Shown piece by piece: positions 40,109-52,698 of a DNA stretch of 64,000 nucleotides. The stretch spans positions 1 through 64,000 of the forward strand of contig SIAD01000005.1 of NCBI GenBank assembly GCA_009691915.1. Reading direction: 5' to 3'. The position numbers and the translations under genes were made by a program. Each line of letters opens with the position of its first letter. The stretch's first letter is position 1. Under the pieces are notes generated by a model that was given only the letters and a program-made list of their open reading frames with translations, ran no database searches and was not told the DNA's origin. This DNA is from Phycisphaerales bacterium (GTDB taxonomy: Bacteria > Planctomycetota > Phycisphaerae > Phycisphaerales > SM1A02).

Positions 40109-42679
40109 TCAACGAACCTGCGGGGCCCCGGCGGTGCGCACCCACCTTCCGTCGCGCCATACCGACAACGAGGGGTCGACGCCAAAGATCTCCTGAGGCG
40201 AACCGATCGGTGCGTCAACCGCAGCTCCTGCGCGTCCGAGTGAGATCGCGTCTATCCATGAGTCGCTCTCCGGCTGCAGCAAGGCGCGTTCAAGACGAAG
40301 GATCGAATCGAGAGTGGCCGCGTCGAGTGCCGGAGGCTCGCCCGCGACATGCACCGCGGCCAGACGGTCGAACTCCAACGCGCTGCCTGGCACCGACTCC
40401 ATGGCTCGTTCGAAGAGGTCGCGGGAGCGAGGGTCCTTCAGACGGTCGGACGCCCGTCGACCGTATCCGCGTCGATACTGGGCCAAGGCGTCGACGACCG
40501 CGAGCCGCGCGACAGATCCCGCCTGCAACGCATCAACGCCAACTGCCGGGTCTTTCGCAACACCCCCCGCTCCGAAGAGGCGCGCCGCCGCTCTCCACTG
40601 CGCGACCGCGTCGGTCGCGTCCGGCGCCGACGGATCCTCAAGTGAGGCCATCATGAGCGCCGCCGAAGCGCCGAGCGCCTGCGGGTCGAGTACCCCCGCG
40701 AGTGAGGCAAGGTGTCCGGCGAGCAGGCGCGCTGAAGAGTGGTCGGCGTCTGCGCTGATTTCTTCCGCGAGTTCCAGGTAGGCCTCGGCGTTCGTGGGTT
40801 CGAGCGACTCAAGTCGGCGAGCCCATCTCTCCGAGAGCGCCGGGTCGAGCGGCGTGGCTAGCCGGACTCGATCCGCGCGGGATACAGCGGCAGGCGGAGT
40901 GCCCCGAGGGGAAGCCACACCGAGCTCGATAGCGTCGAGCACCAGAAGACCGCGGAGATCGGCGATGGCCTGCGCTAGTGCAGAGATTGACGCGCTGCGC
41001 TCATGGGACGCATCGACGATGGCCTGGAGAATGGTGGGCTCATCGGCCTTGCGGCGCTCCGCCAGCGCCAGCCCTTCAAGCCGCAGGAGTGCGGTCAGAT
41101 TCCCAGCGAGCGCGTTGAGGGAGTGTCCGCCTCCAGGGAGCGCCCACGAGTGCGTACCGCGTGAAGGTGGCGGGCTCAGCGCCGCCACCAACCGAGCCGG
41201 ACTCTCGACTGTTGCGCCAGGGCGCCCTCGGTGTATTGCCGCCGCCATCGTTGCCGAGAGCGCATGCTCGGCGGCCTCGATCTGCTGTGTGCGTGACCCG
41301 CGCGCCGCGAGAATCTTCGCAACAATCGCCGCGCGAGCGCCGGAGAATCCCTGAGTCCCCTGGGGATCAACATCGGCGACTGCCCTGATGACACCAGCGC
41401 TAGCCGGATCGAGAGCGAGTTCGGAATAGCGCTCCTCGACCGCCTCCATGGTGTCGAGCGAGTCTGCGCCGCGCGCGACGAGGATGGCCCTAGCGAGCGT
41501 GCGCGTCGCCCGGCTTGGCCCCTTGAGTGCCTCGTGGACCAGCGTGCGCGCGTCGGTCGGCCCCGGAGGGGATCCACGGGTCTTGTAGTTACGCAGCAGC
41601 GCCGCGCGCGCCTCCGTTGACCCAGGCACGCGCTGAAGCATCGCGGCGAGCTGGCCATCATCCGCGCCCGCCGTCGAGTGCACGGCCGCTGGCGCGGCGG
41701 GCACGGTGATGACGGCATCGGTCGGCAGCGTGTCGAGGGTGCGAGACGCATTGGAGTCTTCTCCCGCAACGAGATCCCGTGCCGCTGCATGGAGGGCCAT
41801 CAGCCGTTCGAGGAGCATGGCCTGCCTCAGGGGAACAAGCAGCGGATCGCCCGGACTCAGCCGGTCAGTCGCAAGCGGTCCGATCTCGCCCAGTGAAATG
41901 GCAAAGGCGGCCGATGTCGTCCGCTGCCAGCGCTGACGCAACGCGCGCGCCTCCTCATTGCCAGATGCCCCCGCGCTCTCGCCGAGCACTTTTTGGACTG
42001 GCACTTGTGGGTCCTTCGCCATCGTGCCGCCAGCTGGTGCCGGGGTGCTTGATGGCAGAACCGGAGGCTCGGATTTCCGCCGAGCCGCGGGCGGACTCTG
42101 CGTCTCCGGGGTCGAAGGCGTCTCACGATTGCGCGCAGCGTCGCTCGATGCTCCCAAGTCCCGTGTGGCAATGACGATCTCGCCGATCAGCGCAATGAGC
42201 GAGATCACGACGATGCACAAGAGCACCCACGGCACACCAGTGCGCATGTCCGGGTCGACCGCGGGAAGCGGCAGCCGTGCGACCTCCGCGCCGCCTCTCG
42301 TGTCGCGCGCGCCTGAAGTGTCGAATCCCTTCAGTCGCTGAGGTGCCCTTCCCGCGGCAAGAAACATCCGTGCACGCCTGGGATCACGCCGCATCAGAAC
42401 CATCGCTCGGCGCGAAAACGACCGTCGCGGGCCGGACGAAGCGCGTGACGAGCCTGAGGGAGACAACAGCCCAGACGCCAATCGGTACGCCGCGGCCTGA
42501 ATCTCCATCCGATAGGCGCGGTGCTCACTCTCGGTGAGAGCTGTCCACTGTCCCGCCTGCGCGAGTCGTCGGCGGCCAGCAGCGACGACCGCCTCGCGCG
42601 TCGCGCCGTGCACGACTCCGAGCAGCGCTGCATCGTCCGCGTCCGCAGGGAGACGGAGGAAGGATCTGGCCACACTCAT
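40109..42679 (-). CDS. Large single-pass protein of the ExbBD-VWA operon
   Basis: The protein has 856 residues from the ATG at 42679, which overlaps the upstream stop (ATGA). The N-terminal part (about 1-130) is probably cytoplasmic and basic; its opening (SFLRLPADADDAALLGVV, then EHRAYRMEIQAAAYRLA) faintly recalls J-domain-like helices. One transmembrane helix (VPWVLLCIVVISLIALIGEIV, about 150-170; middle residues as listed) leads to about 680 periplasmic residues, almost all Ala-rich helices, probably repeats. There is no enzyme motif. It is the last gene of the seven-gene overlapping operon, so it likely works with ExbB/ExbD and the VWA protein. Confidence 0.65.
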   Translation of the reverse strand: MSVARSFLRLPADADDAALLGVVHGATREAVVAAGRRRLAQAGQWTALTESEHRAYRMEIQAAAYRLASGLLSPSGSSRASSGPRRSFSRRAMVLMRRDPRRARMFLAAGRAPQRLKGFDTSGARDTRGGAEVARLPLPAVDPDMRTGVPWVLLCIVVISLIALIGEIVIATRDLGASSDAARNRETPSTPETQSPPAARRKSEPPVLPSSTPAPAGGTMAKDPQVPVQKVLGESAGASGNEEARALRQRWQRTTSAAFAISLGEIGPLATDRLSPGDPLLVPLRQAMLLERLMALHAAARDLVAGEDSNASRTLDTLPTDAVITVPAAPAAVHSTAGADDGQLAAMLQRVPGSTEARAALLRNYKTRGSPPGPTDARTLVHEALKGPSRATRTLARAILVARGADSLDTMEAVEERYSELALDPASAGVIRAVADVDPQGTQGFSGARAAIVAKILAARGSRTQQIEAAEHALSATMAAAIHRGRPGATVESPARLVAALSPPPSRGTHSWALPGGGHSLNALAGNLTALLRLEGLALAERRKADEPTILQAIVDASHERSASISALAQAIADLRGLLVLDAIELGVASPRGTPPAAVSRADRVRLATPLDPALSERWARRLESLEPTNAEAYLELAEEISADADHSSARLLAGHLASLAGVLDPQALGASAALMMASLEDPSAPDATDAVAQWRAAARLFGAGGVAKDPAVGVDALQAGSVARLAVVDALAQYRRGYGRRASDRLKDPRSRDLFERAMESVPGSALEFDRLAAVHVAGEPPALDAATLDSILRLERALLQPESDSWIDAISLGRAGAAVDAPIGSPQEIFGVDPSLSVWRDGRWVRTAGAPQVR

Positions 42680-45345
42680 CGCGGCGTCACCTTGTTTGGA
42701 ACGATCCCGAGCCTCTGGGCGAGCGCGCGCAGGCGTTGTCCGCCCGCACCCGGACCCCACTCGGGCACCAGCACCGCGTGCTGCGCCAAGACCCCGCGCG
42801 CCTCTACGGGATCCGTTCGCGCCAGCAGTTCACAGAGATCGGCCTTGCGGGAGAACCACTCGTCGCTGCGCTCTGGAAGTCCTCCGACCAGACGGATGAG
42901 CGCCCCATATGCCACATCGAACTCTCCGCAGGCCATCGCCGCGTCGGCCTTGAGCGCGACGGCATGGGCATTGTCCTCGCGATGCGCGAGGACTTCGGCA
43001 GCGATCGCCAACGCCTCGCGGTCGAGCGCGGACGCCTGGTCGCGGGCACTCGCATCATCCGCTGCTATGGCCCCCCGAATTGCACGGGCCTCCTCGATCA
43101 GGGCGCGCCCCAGGGCGATGCTGGCGGAGTCGGCCCGTGATGTGTCGGCAGTTCGCAGAGCGGCATCACGCAGGCTTCTGCGGGAGTGCGATATCGCCCG
43201 CGCCACGAGTCCCGCATCGACCCCGCGCAGCGCTCCCTCCTGCTCCATCCGCTCGATGCCGACGACGAAGAGCGCCTCTCCCACGGGACGCCACAAAGGA
43301 TCGGCGACTGCTCGAAGGTCCGTGAGCGATTCGAGCGCGCAAGAAATGTCTCGCTCCTCAAGTGCGAGGCTCAGTCGGCGGACCGCGATCTCGGCCCGGT
43401 ACCCCTGAGGCTCCTGCATGCGCGCATAGACGCTGCCGATCTCACCGAGCAGGCGCCGCCCATCAGACAGTTGGCGGACGGCCGGATCGAGCGCCGCCTC
43501 GAGTTGCTGCCGGACAACAAGGTCGATCCCGCCACGCACCCATCGCGCCGCAGGAGGGGCCGGAATCGACAGGAGGCGGAGTGCCTCCTCACGCCGCAGG
43601 TGGGCGCTGGCCGCGCGAAACCTGCGGTAGAGAAGCGTGGCTGCCGCCTCCCGAACTTCGGCCACAGCGTCATCGCGTCGTGCATGGCTCAGCAGTGCAT
43701 CGACGAAGGTCCCATCGAGATGCGCGCCCGGGCTCCGAGCGAGTGTCGCCATCGCCGCTTCCGTGTGATTCCCCGCCGGATACGACTGGAGGTATCGCGC
43801 GGCGATCTCTGCGCTGCGGGATCCATCGGAGCTGTCTTTCGCGGGGCACTTTCCGAGTTCCGCCATGCGAAGTGCCATCCACAGTGACTCATCCGCCTGA
43901 TTGCCACTTCGCTTGACTGATGCGTTCTCGAAACTCTCGGCGGCATCACAATGCTGGCCCGCGCCAAGTTGGGACCACGCAAGCAGTTCCTCGACACCGG
44001 CCGCGGCCTTGCTGAGACTGGGAGCCAGTGCCGCCGCCTTTGCTAGTTCCGTGGTGGCAAGGGTGAACGCCGAGCGCGCCGAGGCGGCAACGCCATTCGT
44101 GCGAGCCATCTCGTACTGCTCGATCCCGCGCACTAGGCAAGCTTCGAAGCCATCGCCGACGGACAACTGCGGTACGGCGCCACCAATGCGTCGGACTGCG
44201 GCCAGGTCTCCGGCCCCGGCGGCGTGCGCGAGTGCATGGCGCGCGAGTTCCCCTGCCTCGGGCGATCCCGCGGACTCCACGAACGCCCGAACCGCGCCGC
44301 CGACCGCCTCATCCGGGTCGACTTCGCGCGTCGTGTCCGAGAGTAGCGCTCCGGCCCGCTGATACTCGCCCGTGTCGACCAGGGCCTGATAGAGCCACCC
44401 ACCATGATCGCGCAGCCCCGACCAGATCCCGTCCGAATCGAGCAGTTCGAACCATCCATCGGCCAGAGCCATCGGACCCTTCAGCGCCTTGGTGAGCGCC
44501 ATCCCAAGAATGGATTGCGCGTAGTACTCCTCGCCGCGAAGATCGATCGAGGCGTGAACGGGCTCGGGAAATGGTATGCCCGTCTCAAGGATTTCCGCCC
44601 ACTGGCGGAGCGCGTCGAGCACCAGCTCGTCGCGAATCGCGCTCTTCGGCTTGACGACGCCTGCCGAGGGCCTCGAGATCCACAGCGCCCAGTAGGCGCA
44701 CCACGAGCGCAGAAACTTTGCCTCCAGCAGTTGTTGCTGGTGTTGCTCCTCCAGCTCCAGCACGCCCTGTCGCTGCGCGTCATCCGCCCCCGCCGCCAAT
44801 CGTCGGTCTTCATCGATCCTGGATCGAAGCAGCGCGATGTCCTCGCGAAGCGGATCACTTGCACGGGCGAGTGCCGCCGTCGCGCGCGAAGCGAGTTGAT
44901 GATCGCTGTGCCCTCGGCGAAGCTGCTCAATGTCGCGCAGTGCCAGGCGGTAATCCGCGTGCGCGACTGCCAATCGCAGCTGGATCTCATCCGGATGCCG
45001 TTCGCGCGAGAGAAACCTGAGAACCCGGTTGCGAAGGTCCGCGAGTCGATCCTCATCGGACGCGGTCCTAAGGAGCCGGATATAGGCCTCCGACAGTCGC
45101 GCGATTGATGACGCGTTGGTCGATGGCGCCTTGCGCACCTCCTCTTCGAGCACCGCCGCGAGCAGCCCATCGAGTCCCGCCTGCGAGAGCCACTCGGTGA
45201 GTGCGCGCGTATCGTCCGCCTCCGCAGCGTCGTCGGCGGCGCGCACGCTGGGTGTCACAAGGCATGCGCTGACGCACACCGCAGCGCACACCGCCAGGTG
45301 CCAGTGCCTCGGCCGTGTCGACCCCTCAGTGGCCGCGCGACACAT
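42676..45345 (-). CDS. Large secreted helical-repeat protein of the ExbBD-VWA operon
   Basis: The protein has 889 residues from the ATG at 45345, overlapping the second exbD by 20 nt. This start gives a clean signal peptide (HLAVCAAVCVSACLV, cleavage near SVRA-AD). The mature protein is almost entirely helical with TPR-like spacing and a cysteine pair around residues 485-510. There is no catalytic motif. Together with the 856-residue neighbour it may form a periplasmic scaffold for the proton-driven complex, an inference from the operon. It overlaps the last gene by 4 nt. Confidence 0.65.
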   Translation of the reverse strand: MCRAATEGSTRPRHWHLAVCAAVCVSACLVTPSVRAADDAAEADDTRALTEWLSQAGLDGLLAAVLEEEVRKAPSTNASSIARLSEAYIRLLRTASDEDRLADLRNRVLRFLSRERHPDEIQLRLAVAHADYRLALRDIEQLRRGHSDHQLASRATAALARASDPLREDIALLRSRIDEDRRLAAGADDAQRQGVLELEEQHQQQLLEAKFLRSWCAYWALWISRPSAGVVKPKSAIRDELVLDALRQWAEILETGIPFPEPVHASIDLRGEEYYAQSILGMALTKALKGPMALADGWFELLDSDGIWSGLRDHGGWLYQALVDTGEYQRAGALLSDTTREVDPDEAVGGAVRAFVESAGSPEAGELARHALAHAAGAGDLAAVRRIGGAVPQLSVGDGFEACLVRGIEQYEMARTNGVAASARSAFTLATTELAKAAALAPSLSKAAAGVEELLAWSQLGAGQHCDAAESFENASVKRSGNQADESLWMALRMAELGKCPAKDSSDGSRSAEIAARYLQSYPAGNHTEAAMATLARSPGAHLDGTFVDALLSHARRDDAVAEVREAAATLLYRRFRAASAHLRREEALRLLSIPAPPAARWVRGGIDLVVRQQLEAALDPAVRQLSDGRRLLGEIGSVYARMQEPQGYRAEIAVRRLSLALEERDISCALESLTDLRAVADPLWRPVGEALFVVGIERMEQEGALRGVDAGLVARAISHSRRSLRDAALRTADTSRADSASIALGRALIEEARAIRGAIAADDASARDQASALDREALAIAAEVLAHREDNAHAVALKADAAMACGEFDVAYGALIRLVGGLPERSDEWFSRKADLCELLARTDPVEARGVLAQHAVLVPEWGPGAGGQRLRALAQRLGIVPNKVTPR

Positions 45346-45745
45346 AGGACACCTTCGTAAATCCCGCGTCGTGAGCGGCCTGCATTGCGGCCGCCACAGC
45401 AGCGACCGTCGGTCCCGAGTGAACCCGCACCACCACACCAACATCGTGCGGTAACTGCTCGAGAACCGCCGCGAGCTCGGCGCGCGAACGCACGCTCCTC
45501 GAGCCGATCCGGAAGAGCGGTCCCAGGGCATCCGCCTCGACATCGATGTTCTGCCCGCTCAAGGAGGATCCACTGATCCCCGCGCGCGCCTGGGTCACCT
45601 GGGCAAAGAGGTGGGACTCCTGACCACCCACCGAAGTCGTAAAGAGGAAGTACGCCAGCAGCAGGAAGGTCGCATCGATCATGCTGGTCATGTCGAGGGC
45701 GACTGCGCCGTGAGCCCCGCGCCTCGATCGTGTCCCGATCTTCAC
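45326..45745 (-). CDS. ExbD/TolR-family protein, second copy
   Basis: The protein has 139 residues from GTG 45745, which overlaps the first exbD's stop (GTGA); a longer frame from 45793 exists but would intrude 52 nt into that gene. A short cytoplasmic N-terminus leads into one transmembrane helix with the proton-carrying Asp (DMTSMIDATFLLLAYFLF). The periplasmic domain ends VVVRVHSGPTVAAVAAAMQAAHDAGFTKV-like (quoted in part), as in ExbD. It should pair with ExbB to turn proton flow into mechanical work. Confidence 0.9.
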   Translation of the reverse strand: MKIGTRSRRGAHGAVALDMTSMIDATFLLLAYFLFTTSVGGQESHLFAQVTQARAGISGSSLSGQNIDVEADALGPLFRIGSRSVRSRAELAAVLEQLPHDVGVVVRVHSGPTVAAVAAAMQAAHDAGFTKVSYVSRGH

Positions 45746-46161
45746 GGGACCCGCTCCGAAGGCGACACAGTGGCGAGGCGAATCGAGCGACACCCCCCCG
45801 TGCGCAAGGCGTCCATCACCCTGTTCAGCGTCCCCGCGGCCAGTGCGCGGTCGGCACGGACAATCGGAACAGCGTTCGGATCGGCCGCCAGGGCCGAACG
45901 CACCCGCGCTGGCAGGTCTTCGATTGGCACAGGCTCATCGAGGATAGTGATGGTCCCATTCGAGCCGAGATTGACCACGAGTCCGGACGCTCCTCGACTG
46001 GCCTCATTCGCGCCAGACTCCTGCGGCAGATCAAGGTCGCTTGACGCAAGCTCCGCCAGTTGGGCAGTCGTGAGGAAAAAGATCAGGAGCAGAAACACGA
46101 CATCGATCATTGGTGTCATGTCCAGCGCGAGCGGTCCGCGTCGTTGGGTGCAGACGCGCAT
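45742..46161 (-). CDS. ExbD/TolR-family protein, first copy
   Basis: The protein has 139 residues, the same length as the following paralogue. The transmembrane helix carries the conserved Asp in MTPMIDVVFLLLIFFLTT. The periplasmic domain contains PIVRADRALAAGTLNRVMDALR, typical of ExbD. Its ATG shares its A with the upstream exbB stop (TGATG). Having two ExbD genes next to one ExbB suggests a hetero-dimeric rod in the ExbB channel or two alternative complexes. Confidence 0.92.
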   Translation of the reverse strand: MRVCTQRRGPLALDMTPMIDVVFLLLIFFLTTAQLAELASSDLDLPQESGANEASRGASGLVVNLGSNGTITILDEPVPIEDLPARVRSALAADPNAVPIVRADRALAAGTLNRVMDALRTGGCRSIRLATVSPSERVP

Positions 46162-46829
46162 CAGGACTGACCCGCGTGAGCCTCCGCGGCGGGTCCCTCA
46201 ATCTGTTCCAGCGCCATCGCCAGTGGCTCGAGTGCTCGTCCCGCATCCGAGGCTGCGCGGTCGATCCGCCGACGCAGCCACGCATGAACCATCACGCAGG
46301 GAATAGCCACGACGAGCCCCTGAAAGGTCGTGGTGAGCGCGATGGAAATGTTGGTGGCGAGAGTCTCGTAGTACGCGCTGCTCTTGGTCGCAGCCGAGGC
46401 GACAGTCTCGAAGGCGCCGATCATGCCCTGCACGGTTCCAAGGAGTCCCAGGAGCGGGGCCACCGAGGCGATCACCGCGATGGAGTCGATCGCCCGGAAG
46501 AGTCGTGCGGTCTCATCCTCGCCGGAATCTTCCATTGCCGCTCGCGCCTCGAGCCCACCGAGTGGCCCTCGCATCGCGCGTTCGATCCCGGCGGCGGCGA
46601 TGCGCCCGACAAATGTGTCGCCCGCCTCGCTGCGGCAGCCCTCGAGCGCGTGCTGAAAGTCCCGCGCCTCTGCCTGCTTGCGAAGCCGCGCGACCTGAGA
46701 GTCGGGCACGAGCTTGGAACGGCGCGTCCTCAGCGCGGCCGCGATCGCGAAGGCGACGCCGAGCACGCTCAGCGAGAGAATCACATACCCGATTACTCCG
46801 CCACCGTCGATGTACTTGAACAATGTCAC
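46161..46829 (-). CDS. ExbB/TolQ/MotA-family proton channel
   Basis: The protein has 222 residues with three transmembrane helices (about 12-33, about 112-135 and about 160-182) separated by a cytoplasmic loop. The family block VAPLLGLLGTVQGMIGAFE and the third helix TNISIALTTTFQGLVVAIP are diagnostic. It should form a pentameric channel around the ExbD helices. The start overlaps the upstream gene (ATGA) and the stop overlaps exbD. Confidence 0.93.
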   Translation of the reverse strand: MTLFKYIDGGGVIGYVILSLSVLGVAFAIAAALRTRRSKLVPDSQVARLRKQAEARDFQHALEGCRSEAGDTFVGRIAAAGIERAMRGPLGGLEARAAMEDSGEDETARLFRAIDSIAVIASVAPLLGLLGTVQGMIGAFETVASAATKSSAYYETLATNISIALTTTFQGLVVAIPCVMVHAWLRRRIDRAASDAGRALEPLAMALEQIEGPAAEAHAGQS

Positions 46830-48040
46830 TGACTGGCTCCTTGGTTCACTGGGGTTGTCTCCTCGGGTTCGGCGTGATCGCTCATGGCCCGAAGCGACGC
46901 CGCGGACTCGTCATCGTGGATCCGCCCGAGGGCGATCGCTGATTGCGCGCGGGCTGCTGCGGCCAGTTCCGGGTACTCGCCCTCATAGGCCGCCGGAATC
47001 GTGAGCATCCGTCCGACGCCGAGACGCACGCTCTCCGGATCCTCTTCCATCACCAAGCTTCGGCCGATCGCATAGATGACCCACGCGCGCGATGGACCTG
47101 GGTCGCTTCGGAGAATCGCCTGCAATGTCTGCCGACCTCGTCGCCGCGCAGGTCCATCGGAACCAACAGCATCCGCCCACGCCTCCATGAGGCGCAACGC
47201 GCGCGTCCCGGCGAGGCGGGACTCCGCGCCCGGCGCCGCCGATTGGTCGGGAGAATCGACCGCGCGACCTTCCGCCGCGGGACGACCATTCGATGCGGTG
47301 GCGATGCCGGAATCGGCCGATGCGATCTCCGCCGCGGCCCGCGAAAGCCGTGCATGCAGCATGTCACTCCGTGCCATGGCCGCGTCGGCGTCGGCGACCA
47401 GTGCGTCCTGTGCGGCCTTCGCCGAGTCCCCATCCATCCACGCCGGAGGCACCGACAGCACGAGCCCGCATTGGCGTTGAACCGGATCACCGCCCCCGAT
47501 CCACACACGCGGAACTGAAACACTCGATCGCGCCGCGGCCGTGGCTAGTGCCGCCGTCAACGACCGTGCCTGATCCGCCGGAGAGGCGGAGGCCGTTCTT
47601 GCAACCCCCTCGAGCGCCAGTTGCCGCAGCACTCGTGCGTCCGGCTCCAGAAGGTCGAGGCCGCGAATGAACATCCGACGCGCCCCGGCGAGGTCGGCGC
47701 GCGCCAGCCGAGTGCGGCCGCGCCAGAGTGCCTCCCCTGCGGCCAGTCTCGCCGCGCGCTCCGTCGGCACCGGGTTGCAGTCGACGGTCTCGATCTGGTC
47801 CCAGCGCAGCGCGATGGTGGGAGACGATGGGTCATCCGTCTCTCGAATCGAGATCCCGTCTGGTCCCTCATCGTTGACATAGCCCGAACTTCGTGCGCCG
47901 CCGTCGCGAAGTTCGACCGTGCACGGGGGAGCCGATCCCGCAGCGGCTGCCGCGCTCGCTACTGTCATCACTCCAAGGAGAGTTGCACCCCGTGCGAGTG
48001 CGGCGAGGCACGCGCGCAATGTGCGCCGTGGTCTCATCAT
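46826..48040 (-). CDS. Secreted protein with N-terminal beta-barrel-like domain
   Basis: The protein has 404 residues. A twin-Arg-rich start and a hydrophobic stretch end in ASAAAAAG, a likely signal peptide. The first mature segment (CTVELRDGGARSSGYVNDEG, then IALRWDQIETVDC) reads like a small SH3-type barrel with a possible disulfide. The remainder is Ala/Arg-rich helix with TPR-like character (RARADLAGARRMFIRGLDLLEP-type segments). No function is recognised. It overlaps the VWA gene and exbB by 4 nt each, so it is a fixed member of the operon. Confidence 0.65.
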   Translation of the reverse strand: MMRPRRTLRACLAALARGATLLGVMTVASAAAAAGSAPPCTVELRDGGARSSGYVNDEGPDGISIRETDDPSSPTIALRWDQIETVDCNPVPTERAARLAAGEALWRGRTRLARADLAGARRMFIRGLDLLEPDARVLRQLALEGVARTASASPADQARSLTAALATAAARSSVSVPRVWIGGGDPVQRQCGLVLSVPPAWMDGDSAKAAQDALVADADAAMARSDMLHARLSRAAAEIASADSGIATASNGRPAAEGRAVDSPDQSAAPGAESRLAGTRALRLMEAWADAVGSDGPARRRGRQTLQAILRSDPGPSRAWVIYAIGRSLVMEEDPESVRLGVGRMLTIPAAYEGEYPELAAAARAQSAIALGRIHDDESAASLRAMSDHAEPEETTPVNQGASQ

Positions 48041-49029
48041 GGCACTCCCTGCCCGACTACGGCGAATGTGCCGCCAGTTTCGGCGGCGATCCTTCGCAGC
48101 GGCGCGGTGGCCGCTGCCTGCCCGAAGGCGATGCAGTGGATGACCGTGTTGGGACCCCGCCGATTCAGCCGAAGGATTTCCTCCGCGGCATCGATGGGGA
48201 TCTCGCCATCACTCATGAAGTAGACGAGATCGGGGCGCTCGCTGCGCGAGAAGATGAGCTGGAAGGCGGGGACCGGATTGGTCCCCCCCCCCGGCGCGAT
48301 CTCGCGCAGCCACTGCCTGATCTTCGCCAAGGACGACTCCCGGCACTTGACGAACTGCCCGTCTTCGTCGAACGACACAACCCCGGAGTCGAAGAGTGCG
48401 ATGTTCACCGACGCGAAGTCGGGAAGCGCAGAGATGCTCCGGTCCAGTTCCTGTTTCGCAACGGTGATCCGAGTGATTGGTGGCGCGTTGGGGCTCCGAG
48501 GATCCGGGGCTTCGCCCAGTGGAGCCCCCATTGACCCCGACTTATCGACGACATAGGCAACCTTGCGGCCGCGACCCCCGACGCCGAAAAACGAGACCCC
48601 CACGCCATTCCCCCCGCCACCATCGGCGCCACCTCCGAAGTCAGAAATGATTCCCGGTGCCCCGCGCGCGGAGACAACCGCATCGCCATCGGCGTTTCCC
48701 GTCGGGTCCGGCATCCCGAAGACCTCTGTCGGCATCCCCGCCGAGGGGGACTCGGTGACCGCCAGTTCGGGAGCGGCCTGCTCCAACCCCGAAGGCGAGC
48801 CCGAGTCCGGCTCGAGTGGGTCTCCGTCGACGAAGACAACCTCGATGGTCGAGTCGCCATCACCGGCATATGCCGTGGACGCGATGGGGATCCGAGCGAG
48901 CACGGCGATCAGGATCGCGTGGATAGGGATCGACAGCGCCAGCCCGATCCACAGCCACGAGACCCCCCGTCTCGAGGCACCTTTGGGCTTCGCAGTGAGC
49001 TCGCGCCCTCGTGGTGGATCAATCGCCAT
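48037..49029 (-). CDS. TonB-like N-terminus fused to a von Willebrand factor A domain
   Basis: The protein has 330 residues from the ATG at 49029. A basic cytoplasmic start and one transmembrane helix (IGLALSIPIHAILIAVLARI, about 27-47) resemble TonB/TolA-type energy transducers. A Pro/Ser/Gly-rich linker with a Gly run (about 60-145) then leads to a VWA domain with a complete MIDAS: DKSGSM (about 161), the Thr in GGGTNP (about 249) and the Asp in MSDGE (about 270). A metal-dependent ligand-binding head energised by ExbB/ExbD is the natural inference. It is first in the operon, with 21 bp between its start and the divergent pyrH start. Confidence 0.82.
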   Translation of the reverse strand: MAIDPPRGRELTAKPKGASRRGVSWLWIGLALSIPIHAILIAVLARIPIASTAYAGDGDSTIEVVFVDGDPLEPDSGSPSGLEQAAPELAVTESPSAGMPTEVFGMPDPTGNADGDAVVSARGAPGIISDFGGGADGGGGNGVGVSFFGVGGRGRKVAYVVDKSGSMGAPLGEAPDPRSPNAPPITRITVAKQELDRSISALPDFASVNIALFDSGVVSFDEDGQFVKCRESSLAKIRQWLREIAPGGGTNPVPAFQLIFSRSERPDLVYFMSDGEIPIDAAEEILRLNRRGPNTVIHCIAFGQAAATAPLRRIAAETGGTFAVVGQGVP

Positions 49030-49050: not shown

Positions 49051-49797
49051 TTGCGCCCAGTGCAGGCACCGAGCTCCGTCGATCATCGGTCGTACAGCCG
49101 AGTCCTCCTGAAGCTCAGCGGAGAGAGTTTCGCATCGGAGGGGACATTCGGCATCCATCCGCAGGAGCTCTCGCACATCGCCGCCGAGATCGCCGGAGCC
49201 TTCGGCACCGGTGTGCAACTCGCGGTCGTTGTCGGCGGCGGCAACATCATTCGCGGCTCCCGTCTGGCCGCGTCGGGGAAGTTCGACCAGTCGACGGCCG
49301 ACTACATGGGGATGCTCGGCACCGTCATCAATGGACTCGCCCTCAAGGAGGCGCTCAAGGGCGTTGGAGTCGAGAGCCGCGTGATGAGCGCGGTGGCGGT
49401 GCCTTCGGTGGCAGAGTCCTTCATTCGCGCGCGCGCACTTCGGCACTTTGAGAAGGGTCGGATTGTGATCCTCGTCGCCGGCACGGGCAACCCGTACTTC
49501 ACGACCGACACATGCGCCGCACTGCGGGCGGTCGAACTGGGCTGCGAAGTCCTCCTGAAGGCCACCAAGGTCGATGGGATCTACTCGGCGGATCCGCGCA
49601 CGGATCCCTCCGCAACCCGCTTTTCAACGCTGACATTCGCACGGGCACTTGAGTCACGGCTGGGGGTGATGGACTTGACCGCCATGACGATGTGCGTCGA
49701 GCACTCGCTTCCTGTTGTCGTATTCGACTACAAGGTGACTGGCAACATCCGGCGCGCCGTCTGTGGCGAGACCATCGGCACGCATGTGACGGTCTGA
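49051..49797 (+). CDS. pyrH: UMP kinase
   Basis: The enzyme phosphorylates UMP to UDP and is a hexamer of the amino-acid-kinase fold. The start is probably TTG 49051 or GTG 49060, giving 248 or 245 residues. Motifs are VLLKLSGESFA, the VVVGGGNIIRG phosphate loop, ADYMGMLGTVINGLAL, VAGTGNPYFTTDTCAALRA (quoted in two parts) and KVDGIYSADP. It is followed 23 nt later by frr, the usual pyrH-frr pairing. Confidence 0.96.
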   Translation: MRPVQAPSSVDHRSYSRVLLKLSGESFASEGTFGIHPQELSHIAAEIAGAFGTGVQLAVVVGGGNIIRGSRLAASGKFDQSTADYMGMLGTVINGLALKEALKGVGVESRVMSAVAVPSVAESFIRARALRHFEKGRIVILVAGTGNPYFTTDTCAALRAVELGCEVLLKATKVDGIYSADPRTDPSATRFSTLTFARALESRLGVMDLTAMTMCVEHSLPVVVFDYKVTGNIRRAVCGETIGTHVTV

Positions 49798-50388: not shown

Positions 50389-52698
50389 ATGGGCTGTGGC
50401 GGCGCCATGACAGGGACCGCCTCGTCCATCGCGGCGATCAGCGCTGTCCTAGTCATCGGGGTCTGCGCAGGGTCCTCGCGCGCCGAGGATCTCCCTCAGG
50501 AGGTTGCGGCCTTCGACAACACGAAGGTCATCCGCTCCTGCCGGCTGATCCTCCCACAGCGGCCCCTTAGAGATGAGGACAACAACGGGGTCATCCACAT
50601 CGAGGGCGACGACATCACGGTTGATCTCGATGGCCGGATGCTGATCGGTGCTGAGCCATCAGCGCCGCAGGAGTTGCTCACAGGGATCGGAATCCGGGTC
50701 ACAGGAAAGCGCGTCACCGTTCGCAACGGTTTCGTGTCGGGCTACCGGGTCGGTCTTGAAGGGATGCAATGCGACGGTAGCTCGTTCCGCGAGCTCGGCT
50801 TCATTCGGAATTTCGCCCAGCGACTTCGGTCCACTCCGGAGGCGGAGGACCAGGCGGACTGGCTCTGGCCACACACCAATGACGCCGATGAGTGGGCGAC
50901 GAAGTACGGCGCGGCCATCTCGATCCGCAACTCGACCGGGGTCACGCTGAGCCGCGTACATGTGCGGCAGGGACAGAACGGAATCCTGCTGTCGGATGTG
51001 AAGAACTCGCGCGTTGAGGATTGCGACGCATCATTCCTCTCGGGATGGGGAGTCGCGCTCTGGCGCAGTTCAGCCAATACCCTCTCGCGCAATTCTTTCG
51101 ACTTCTGCATCCGTGGATACAGCCACGACATCTACTCGCGAGGACAGGACTCGGCGGGGATTCTCTGCTTCGAGCAGTCCAGCGGCAACCGTTTCTTGCT
51201 CAACAGCGCGACTCATTGCGGCGACGGTTTCTTCCTCTTCGCGGGGCGCGAGGCACTGGGGGACTCAGAGGGTGCCACCGCGCCTTCCGACACGCGCGCG
51301 TTCGTCGGGCGCGGGAGCAACGACAATCTCATTGCCTTCAACGACTTTTCCGACGCTGCTGCGCACGGCATCGAAGTGACCTTCTCCTATGGCAATCGAA
51401 TTCTTTTCAACCGCCTCGATCGCGCTGGGATCTGCGGAGTCTGGGGGGGATACTCACACGGCCTCACGATCCGCGGCAACACCATCCGAGGCAATGGTGT
51501 TGTGGGAGCCATCGAAGGCGGCGGCGTCAACATTGAACACGGGTCAGAGTGTCGAATTGAAGCGAATCGGATGTCCGACAATTCCGTGGGGGTCTCGCTT
51601 TGGTGGGATGCCGACGAGGCACTGGCCGCGAAACCCTGGTGTGTCGCCAACGGGACCGCCTCCAAGGACAACGCGGTGGTCGGCAACAGCTTCAGCGACG
51701 AGCCGGTTGCGCTCAGGCTGCGCGCCACAACGGGCACTGTATGGATGGGTAATTCGCTCGCAGGGGTTGGGATTGCCATCGACGCCGATGACCCGAGCAG
51801 GAAGTCGATCGTCGAATCTGCTGTCGTGCCAGATCCGCCCGACGATGCCGCCACCATCGACCTGCGCAACACGCTCACGGGACCATCGATGCCCGTCACC
51901 ATCGCCGGTTCGTCGGTGGTGACGGCACGGCCCCAGCTCTCCGGTCGTGCCGCAATCGTCATGGGTGAGTTCGGGCCCTACGACTATGTCGCACCCATGG
52001 CCGTCCGACTTCCCTCCGGAACGAGCGAGCACCGCTGGAGGCTTCTAGGACCGAGGACCATCGAACTCGTGCAGGCCACCCACGGCACGGCCGACCTGCG
52101 CACTGATATCGATCCTGAGAAACGCCTCGCCGTCGTCACCAACGAACAACTCGGAGGCCTCAGCCCGTACGAACTCGAGATCTTCTGGGGCAAGCTCCGC
52201 GGGGAGTCGCAGCGCGTACGCGGCACGGTCTTCAACGCCAATTGGCGAGTGTCACTCTTCCCGCTCCCCGAGGGGAGCGGGAGCGATTCAATTCCAACGC
52301 GCGAAGCCTTCGACGCTGCCGCGAAGATTGGTCAGCCTGTGTATGTCGAGTCGCTCACCTTTGCCTTCGGCTCCGGCGGGCCATCCGCCGCGAAGTTGAT
52401 TCCCACCGGCGATGCCGAGAAGGTGTTCGGCACCGACCGCTTCGGACTGAGGGCAACCACCCAGTTCACGCTTCCCGCGGGCGAATGGACTGTCGAGACC
52501 ATGTCCGATGATGGGATCCGTGTGATGCTCGACGGGACGGTCATCATTGACCGATGGACCCATCACGGGCCGACGATTGATCGCGTCGAGGTGACCGCCA
52601 GCGCCCCAAGGGAGGCAGCGCTCACGGTCGACTACTTCGAACTCACCGGGCACGCTGTACTCGACCTCAAGATCCTCCCCAAAGCGGCCCCCAAGTGA
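50389..52698 (+). CDS. Secreted right-handed beta-helix protein with PA14-like domain
   Basis: The protein has 769 residues from the ATG at 50389 (a second ATG is at 50407). The signal peptide ends near GSSRA-ED. Residues about 60-480 contain many short N-x-I/V-x-x-N units (NRFLLNSATHCGDGFFLF, NDNLIAFNDFSDAAAHGIEV, NRILFNRLDRAGICGVWGGY), the pattern of parallel beta-helix proteins such as polysaccharide lyases and epimerases. The C-terminal part (about 610-765) has SDDGIRVMLDGTVIIDRW, the core of a PA14-type carbohydrate-binding domain. It is probably an extracellular or periplasmic carbohydrate-active or binding protein. It starts 1 nt after the frr stop. Confidence 0.8.
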   Translation: MGCGGAMTGTASSIAAISAVLVIGVCAGSSRAEDLPQEVAAFDNTKVIRSCRLILPQRPLRDEDNNGVIHIEGDDITVDLDGRMLIGAEPSAPQELLTGIGIRVTGKRVTVRNGFVSGYRVGLEGMQCDGSSFRELGFIRNFAQRLRSTPEAEDQADWLWPHTNDADEWATKYGAAISIRNSTGVTLSRVHVRQGQNGILLSDVKNSRVEDCDASFLSGWGVALWRSSANTLSRNSFDFCIRGYSHDIYSRGQDSAGILCFEQSSGNRFLLNSATHCGDGFFLFAGREALGDSEGATAPSDTRAFVGRGSNDNLIAFNDFSDAAAHGIEVTFSYGNRILFNRLDRAGICGVWGGYSHGLTIRGNTIRGNGVVGAIEGGGVNIEHGSECRIEANRMSDNSVGVSLWWDADEALAAKPWCVANGTASKDNAVVGNSFSDEPVALRLRATTGTVWMGNSLAGVGIAIDADDPSRKSIVESAVVPDPPDDAATIDLRNTLTGPSMPVTIAGSSVVTARPQLSGRAAIVMGEFGPYDYVAPMAVRLPSGTSEHRWRLLGPRTIELVQATHGTADLRTDIDPEKRLAVVTNEQLGGLSPYELEIFWGKLRGESQRVRGTVFNANWRVSLFPLPEGSGSDSIPTREAFDAAAKIGQPVYVESLTFAFGSGGPSAAKLIPTGDAEKVFGTDRFGLRATTQFTLPAGEWTVETMSDDGIRVMLDGTVIIDRWTHHGPTIDRVEVTASAPREAALTVDYFELTGHAVLDLKILPKAAPK

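Follow-up and report, generated by a model that had tools for sequence, protein, structure and literature searches.

A conserved gene cluster of Phycisphaerales joins an ExbB-ExbD-ExbD motor to a VWA transducer and helical-repeat proteins: an extended form of the vWA force transducers

A stretch of 64,000 nucleotides (nt) from the genome of a Phycisphaerales bacterium, probably of a freshwater lineage (assembly GCA_009691915.1, contig SIAD01000005.1, positions 1 to 64,000; hereafter the window) carries at 40109-49029 a cluster of seven minus-strand genes. They encode a VWA domain protein with a transmembrane (TM) helix, an ExbB, two different ExbDs and three further proteins named here P404, P889 and P856 (Table 1). 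Judged by its gene content, the cluster is an extended form of the vWA force transducers, the core of which (VWA, ExbB, two ExbDs and a large TPR-type protein) has already been published (PMC12204202). We tentatively favour a machine in which the motor exerts a pull on a VWA arm in the inner membrane, to which helical-repeat proteins of the periplasm are bound; outer-membrane upkeep is its most likely purpose. Each gene overlaps the next, by 4, 4, 1, 4, 20 and 4 nt as read directly from the window sequence, and coordinates, strand and lengths likewise bear out the seven overlapping genes claimed in the initial annotation of this DNA.

The order VWA-P404-ExbB-ExbD-ExbD-P889-LONG-SHORT, where LONG and SHORT are the two parts of P856, recurs in four families of one order. 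ExbB matches were present in 61 of 61 genomes; the neighbourhood of the best match was read in 37 relatives, 80 named loci were added, and a locus was scored if at least 9.5 kb followed the VWA start. This left out 36 of the 80 named loci and, among the relatives, L047, L060 and L072 (no VWA gene in the stretch) and L049, L065 and L067 (short). Because the gene caller had missed the window's VWA gene, homology was used instead. In this gene-neighbourhood survey, which the initial annotation had proposed, the genes proved syntenic far beyond the genus: the full set, in one order and on one strand, was found at 38 of the 44 named loci of sufficient length, and 30 of 31 relatives' loci also have it. 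The incomplete named loci comprise three without detectable P404 and SHORT (L145, L149, L150) and three without the motor (L108, L110, L112), and the remaining relative (L073) is of another type; L073 and L191, both of family f6, have two tandem VWA genes preceding ExbB-ExbD-ExbD. LONG or SHORT was scored solely inside a P856-like frame in L100, L102, L041, L042, L044 and L062, and for L048 the scoring printed the two fused parts in reverse. Overlaps in the relatives are not taken as evidence, because one of the rules that set their starts, the second, gives preference to short overlaps. All seven window genes are under purifying selection, with ratios of nonsynonymous to synonymous substitution (dN/dS) of 0.11-0.25 against the nearest relative fetched (L038), and these ratios are rough because dS is 1.07-1.75. 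LONG and SHORT are two genes in most relatives outside the genus; they form one frame in the window's genus and also in G019 (802 amino acids, aa) and G027 (1418 aa), two genomes of other genera. The 856-residue single-pass helical protein first described thus retains its one strong TM peak and is corrected to a fusion of two genes.

At an E-value of 1e-20, P889 was matched in 49 of the 61 genomes (36/37 in family f1, 6/6 in f2, 1/1 in f3, 6/6 in f4, 0/6 in f5 and 0/5 in f6). There is one P889 locus per genome, and genomes of about 2 Mb retain the set. Two wider samples, which overlap, gave P889 matches in 14/150 (class, E < 1e-39) and 13/244 (phylum, E < 1e-90); the class sample includes seven genomes of the window's family, five of which match at E < 1e-39 (G188 only at 2.2e-40). 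Outside the window's class, L177 and L178 (G295 and G359, family f80) have all eight genes, by either old inheritance or transfer. In these samples the strong P889 matches are otherwise limited to the window's order; weaker ones in other classes are mostly single TPR-like stretches and were not counted as orthologues.

In the window's VWA protein a hydropathy peak at 26-44 contains SIPIH, that is, SxxxH at 33-37, and the residues of the MIDAS metal site are complete (D162-K-S164-G-S166, T250 and D274). SxxxH is the family motif of the Tol-Pal transducer, given also in PMC12204202. It occurs in the TM helix at 76 of the 80 named loci, the others being L153 (AxxxH) and L141, L157 and L161 (N instead of H), and at 33 of 34 relatives' loci, with undetermined bases at the site in L056. 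The assigned start of the L068 VWA protein lies just before the histidine, and the upstream frame has the serine as well. An alignment of 20 VWA proteins, L068 among them, has a mean column identity of 33%; in it the histidine and all five metal-site residues never vary, and the serine hardly does. What had been called a TonB-like/VWA fusion therefore keeps its TonB-like membrane helix and its VWA domain, and the TonB C-terminal domain is not there. At L141 and L161 the VWA histidine is an asparagine although ExbB and ExbD genes adjoin. The ExbD TM aspartate is present in 33/33 ExbD1 and 33/33 ExbD2 sequences, 11 rows that failed the pattern having been read by eye. The window's ExbB scores far under the NCBIfam TolQ and ExbB equivalog cut-offs, and ExbD2 has no NCBIfam match up to E 0.1. 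A flagellar motor was rejected (ExbB scores 14.3 bits on the MotA1 equivalog vs. a cut-off of 303.8), as was a Zorya motor (of the three window proteins scanned, ExbB, ExbD1 and P856, none matches PADLOC up to E 0.01).

The AlphaFold2 model of P404 has a predicted local distance difference test score (pLDDT) of 87.5 and a predicted template-modelling score (pTM) of 0.84, and contains five strands, presumed to form a small barrel, followed by TPR-like helices. A fold search with the whole protein gave generic helical-repeat matches, none with Foldseek E < 0.001; the best was Fis1 (Z 12.0), and such matches are common for helical repeats. P404 and P856 have no Pfam match up to E 1. Sub-threshold TPR is the sole Pfam match of the window's P889, and several of 22 members of its family show weak TPR matches (best E 3.9e-05). 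With weaker support, LONG appears to start with a degenerate J-domain, the values being weak but in agreement. The nine best solved-structure matches of its N-terminal domain profile are all J-domain proteins (best E 0.0058). The predicted fold of this domain (pLDDT 85.3, pTM 0.67) gave Rbj, presumably a J-domain protein, in the first two rows of a fold search (E 0.085) and then Thermus DnaJ (E 0.20); none was below 0.001, and J-domain chains make up most of the best 50 rows. Pfam DnaJ matches one of 19 LONG members (E 0.18). The HPD tripeptide is missing from the window's J-like domain and was found in 6/31 rows of one alignment (A8) and 2/16 of another (A7); one of the 25 rows of A8 without it (L125) has a wrong start. 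The domain would lie on the cytoplasmic side, because it is placed ahead of the single strong TM peak.

Table 1. Genes of the cluster and the divergent neighbour, in window coordinates
Feature	Coordinates	Strand	Description
VWA force transducer, 330 aa	48037..49029	-	N-terminal stretch, one TM helix, linker, VWA domain; Pfam VWA
P404, 404 aa	46826..48040	-	Signal-peptide-like N-terminus, five strands (40-87), TPR-like helical repeat
ExbB/TolQ-type proton channel subunit, 222 aa	46161..46829	-	Pfam MotA_ExbB E 1.7e-25; three hydrophobic peaks
ExbD1, 139 aa	45742..46161	-	Pfam ExbD E 3.8e-23; TM with MID aspartate
ExbD2, second, diverged ExbD, 139 aa	45326..45745	-	Pfam ExbD E 3.5e-9 (on a translation with a longer start); TM with MID aspartate
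P889, 889 aa	42676..45345	-	Signal-peptide-like N-terminus; TPR-like towards C-terminus
P856, 856 aa, LONG::SHORT fusion	40109..42679	-	Putative degenerate J-domain (~1-72), TM peak 152-170, rest of LONG, SHORT C-terminal
Presumed pyrH (UMP kinase), divergent neighbour outside the machine	49060..49797	+	Homologue across compared loci

The available text of PMC12204202 (2025) describes 'vWA force transducers', Planctomycetes included, whose function is unknown there; modelling in that article places such vWA TM helices at the TolA/TonB site of the motor, and a possible role in gliding is suggested. The present cluster has in common with them a TM helix with a TonB/TolA-type motif, a linker and a VWA domain, together with one TolQ-like gene, two different TolR-like genes and a TPR-type gene. 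The published Ser/His motif (SHLS), of which S and H alone were scored, is found in the VWA TM helix of the window as SIPIH, and the adjacent TPR gene is represented by P889, with its weak TPR matches that are sub-threshold in the window's copy. Unlike the systems in that text, which mentions one TPR gene, the present one adds P404, LONG (J-like domain and TM) and SHORT, has the VWA gene first, and can be without the motor at its locus; some of the added genes may already be shown in the figures or supplements of the article. The initial annotation had asked whether the set matches an already named system: its core does, and the set as a whole is an extended one. Literature searches for the set turned up no paper besides PMC12204202 whose listing describes it, and none on a J-domain with ExbB and TolQ. 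PMC12505986 mentions neither VWA nor von Willebrand, and the main text of PMC10632474 (Planctopirus essential genes) makes no mention of ExbB, TolQ, Tol-Pal, biopolymer or von Willebrand.

Three standard assignments were tested and dropped, which favours the earlier statement that the cluster differs from the standard Ton, Tol and Bat systems. The Ton system shares the ExbB/ExbD-type motor and the SxxxH TM helix, but here VWA replaces the TonB C-terminal domain, and TonB_C and Plug (TonB receptor) both give 0 matches in the host. Elsewhere among the 61 genomes TonB_C occurs in 32 (29 over the cut-off) and Plug in 32. Plug is present in 22 and absent from 27 of the 49 P889-positive genomes, so the set is not tied to TonB uptake; 10 of the 12 P889-negative genomes have it. 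Tol-Pal shares a TolQ/TolR-type motor and a TM transducer with SxxxH, but the cluster is without Pal, and neither the TolA C-terminal domain nor TolB is detectable: TolA and TolB_N each gave 0/61, with the limit that Pfam may miss diverged forms (controls positive for TolA in 1/14 and for TolB_N in 3/14 genomes). A Bat operon consists of MoxR, VWA and TPR genes. The cluster has VWA and TPR-type proteins in common with it, but contains ExbB/ExbD and has no MoxR-type gene on its contig (C13), the five MoxR-type AAA_3 genes of the host all lying elsewhere. The initial annotation had reported no TonB receptor, TolA/TolB/Pal or MoxR ATPase nearby. This extends to the whole host genome (2.27 Mb, 34 contigs, 95.9% complete) for Plug, TolA and TolB_N, which were undetected anywhere in it, and to the whole contig for AAA_3; two OmpA-domain proteins are encoded on another contig.

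The motor is separable from the rest of the cluster. Two families include genomes without ExbB-ExbD-ExbD at the locus: L107, L108, L110, L112, L116 and L120 lack exbB and exbD frames in the stretch from VWA to P889; in all of them P404 and P889 are fused in the same frame (1181-1418 codons stop to stop; the L107 frame ends at the contig end). L114 shows the beginning of such a fusion before its contig ends, and in G054 and G155 (family f2) the motor is likewise missing from the locus. Both kinds of fusion, LONG::SHORT and P404::P889, point to a partnership of the proteins concerned. Decay of SxxxH, expected where the motor had left the locus, was not seen: the motif is kept in L107, L108, L110, L112-L117, L120 and L121, of which L113, L115, L117 and L121 end too early to establish motor absence, and in L190 and L230. 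Its retention at motorless loci suggests that those arms still have a motor. G145, whose locus is taken to be L108, has five ExbB genes, one of them accompanied by two ExbDs and by no detected VWA gene in the 14 kb read; this ExbB groups with the cluster's ExbB clade (support 99/96 in a tree of 20 rows). Both ExbB genes found in G054 lie outside that clade. These placements lend weaker support to a relocated cluster-type motor in one genome, G145. L219 (G176), with a weak VWA, ExbB, two ExbDs and no P889, has its ExbB inside the clade too; the clade thus extends beyond the full set, and membership alone is no proof of origin.

The mechanism that we propose is as follows. An ExbB ring with the ExbD1/ExbD2 pair would pass protons; the VWA protein would dock its TM helix on this motor through SxxxH, as TonB and TolA do, and the linker would be pulled or turned. 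The VWA domain would grip a periplasmic partner through its metal site. The likeliest partners are the helical-repeat proteins encoded in the same cluster: P404, P889, SHORT and the portion of LONG that would lie in the periplasm. If these form a complex, the resulting scaffold could extend towards the peptidoglycan or the outer membrane; LONG would anchor it in the inner membrane, with the J-like domain presumably facing the cytoplasm. The machine would most likely serve outer-membrane tethering and upkeep, as Tol-Pal does elsewhere. Envelope upkeep is considered most likely because the set has a single P889 locus per genome, is retained at a genome size of about 2 Mb, does not depend on TonB receptors and occurs where TolA and TolB were undetected. 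The dedicated, energised VWA complex of the initial annotation is thus favoured; that annotation had made no choice among adhesion, secretion and envelope maintenance.

A bolder proposal, which we regard as rather doubtful, is that in this order a VWA-armed, proton-driven scaffold took over the tethering role of Tol-Pal, a separable ExbB-ExbD-ExbD motor driving a conserved module for grip and scaffolding, VWA-P404-P889-LONG-SHORT, which would signal to the cytoplasm, or be controlled by it, via the J-like domain. If true, one machine would join cytoplasm, inner membrane and periplasmic scaffold. Planctomycetes have two membranes. With TolA and TolB undetected in the 61 genomes searched, this conserved locus, which encodes a proton motor and a TonB-like helix, is a direct candidate for coupling the inner and outer membranes in this group. 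The parts list, fusions and motorless loci lead to testable predictions of protein contacts, and the published, uncharacterised vWA transducers gain a concrete set of partners.

Several points weigh against a motor-driven VWA arm for envelope upkeep. The loci were picked by similarity to the window, which favours synteny. P889 is missing from two families of the order (0/11 genomes), and G176 and G192, two of the seven that represent the window's family in the class sample, have no P889 match at all; the function would then be dispensable or met by a simpler paralogue. Where the motor is missing while the VWA arm persists, coupling could be loose. Diverged TolA and TolB may have escaped Pfam, as noted, and OmpA-domain proteins, possibly including a Pal, occur in 61/61 genomes, outside the cluster where examined. 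Within the cluster, neither an outer-membrane lipoprotein nor a domain for binding peptidoglycan could be recognised.

The main rival, because the Agl-Glt system of Myxococcus is the closest working analogue, is a machine for surface adhesion, gliding or polymer movement like Agl-Glt/Nfs, in which the motor drives a surface adhesin or polymer; we judge it unlikely. According to the available text of PMC3169522, Agl-Glt comprises one TolQ-like and two TolR-like proteins, the TM protein GltG, which bears an FHA and a TonB domain, and a number of TPR proteins, of which three have signal peptides, so that the cluster shares with it a TolQ, two TolRs, a TM transducer and several secreted TPR proteins. 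CglB and CglD of the same machinery contain a VWA domain (PMC4488436, in the part available), and gliding is the role suggested in PMC12204202. However, GltG has FHA and TonB where the present transducer has VWA, outer-membrane proteins are known there, and the likeness is one of parts only. Here it is the inner-membrane transducer itself, not an outer-membrane lipoprotein, that carries the VWA domain; the cluster has no recognisable barrel or lipoprotein of the outer membrane, and some carriers are genomes of about 2 Mb.

Less probable still is an uptake or secretion machine, in which the motor would replace TonB in energising transport via an unlinked outer-membrane channel. Both the TonB C-terminal domain and the Plug domain went undetected in the host, which leaves its two VWA proteins as the sole SxxxH transducers found there. 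Against such a role, TonB receptors accompany the set in some genomes and not in others (Plug in 22 of the 49 positive ones). The flanks of 21 loci, searched for a conserved outer-membrane partner, hold mainly housekeeping neighbours, and no outer-membrane channel was recognised by eye in the 13 flanking families common to at least 3 of the 21. In 20 of the 21 loci the gene found upstream of VWA, in the opposite orientation, is a pyrH homologue, and other flanking genes look like frr, nrdR and thrS. Very improbable is a protein-quality or assembly machine, whose J-like domain would recruit DnaK or another partner while the repeat scaffold handles envelope proteins: J-domains top both the profile and fold searches and HPD is kept in 6/31 aligned rows, but its absence from the window and 25/31 rows (L125 with its wrong start among them) makes ordinary DnaK activation unlikely in most.

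The host genome contains a simpler paralogue on contig C16 (L035:5486-10832), with the order VWA (SxxxH)-ExbB-ExbD-ExbD followed by a protein of 825 aa; its ExbB belongs to a different clade, and the 825 aa protein misses the P889 profile at E 1e-4. In G106 and G075, from other families of the class, VWA-ExbB-ExbD-ExbD adjoins a weak P889 match (41 and 54 bits), which links P889 to the five-gene core. Two further ExbB-like genes were seen in the host. One, on contig C18 (L036:8005-10337), stands alone next to a gene for a protein with FHA and SpoIIE domains. The other, on contig C8 (L037:4436-8182), encodes a weakly ExbB-like protein beside two 280-residue proteins with a hydrophobic start and a GYF_2-like protein; ZorA matches at this locus were marginal only. 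Beyond pyrH in the window, 50389-52698 encodes a right-handed beta-helix (NosD-like) protein with a PA14 domain, and a protein of like length and place is found near the cluster in 5 of 21 loci.

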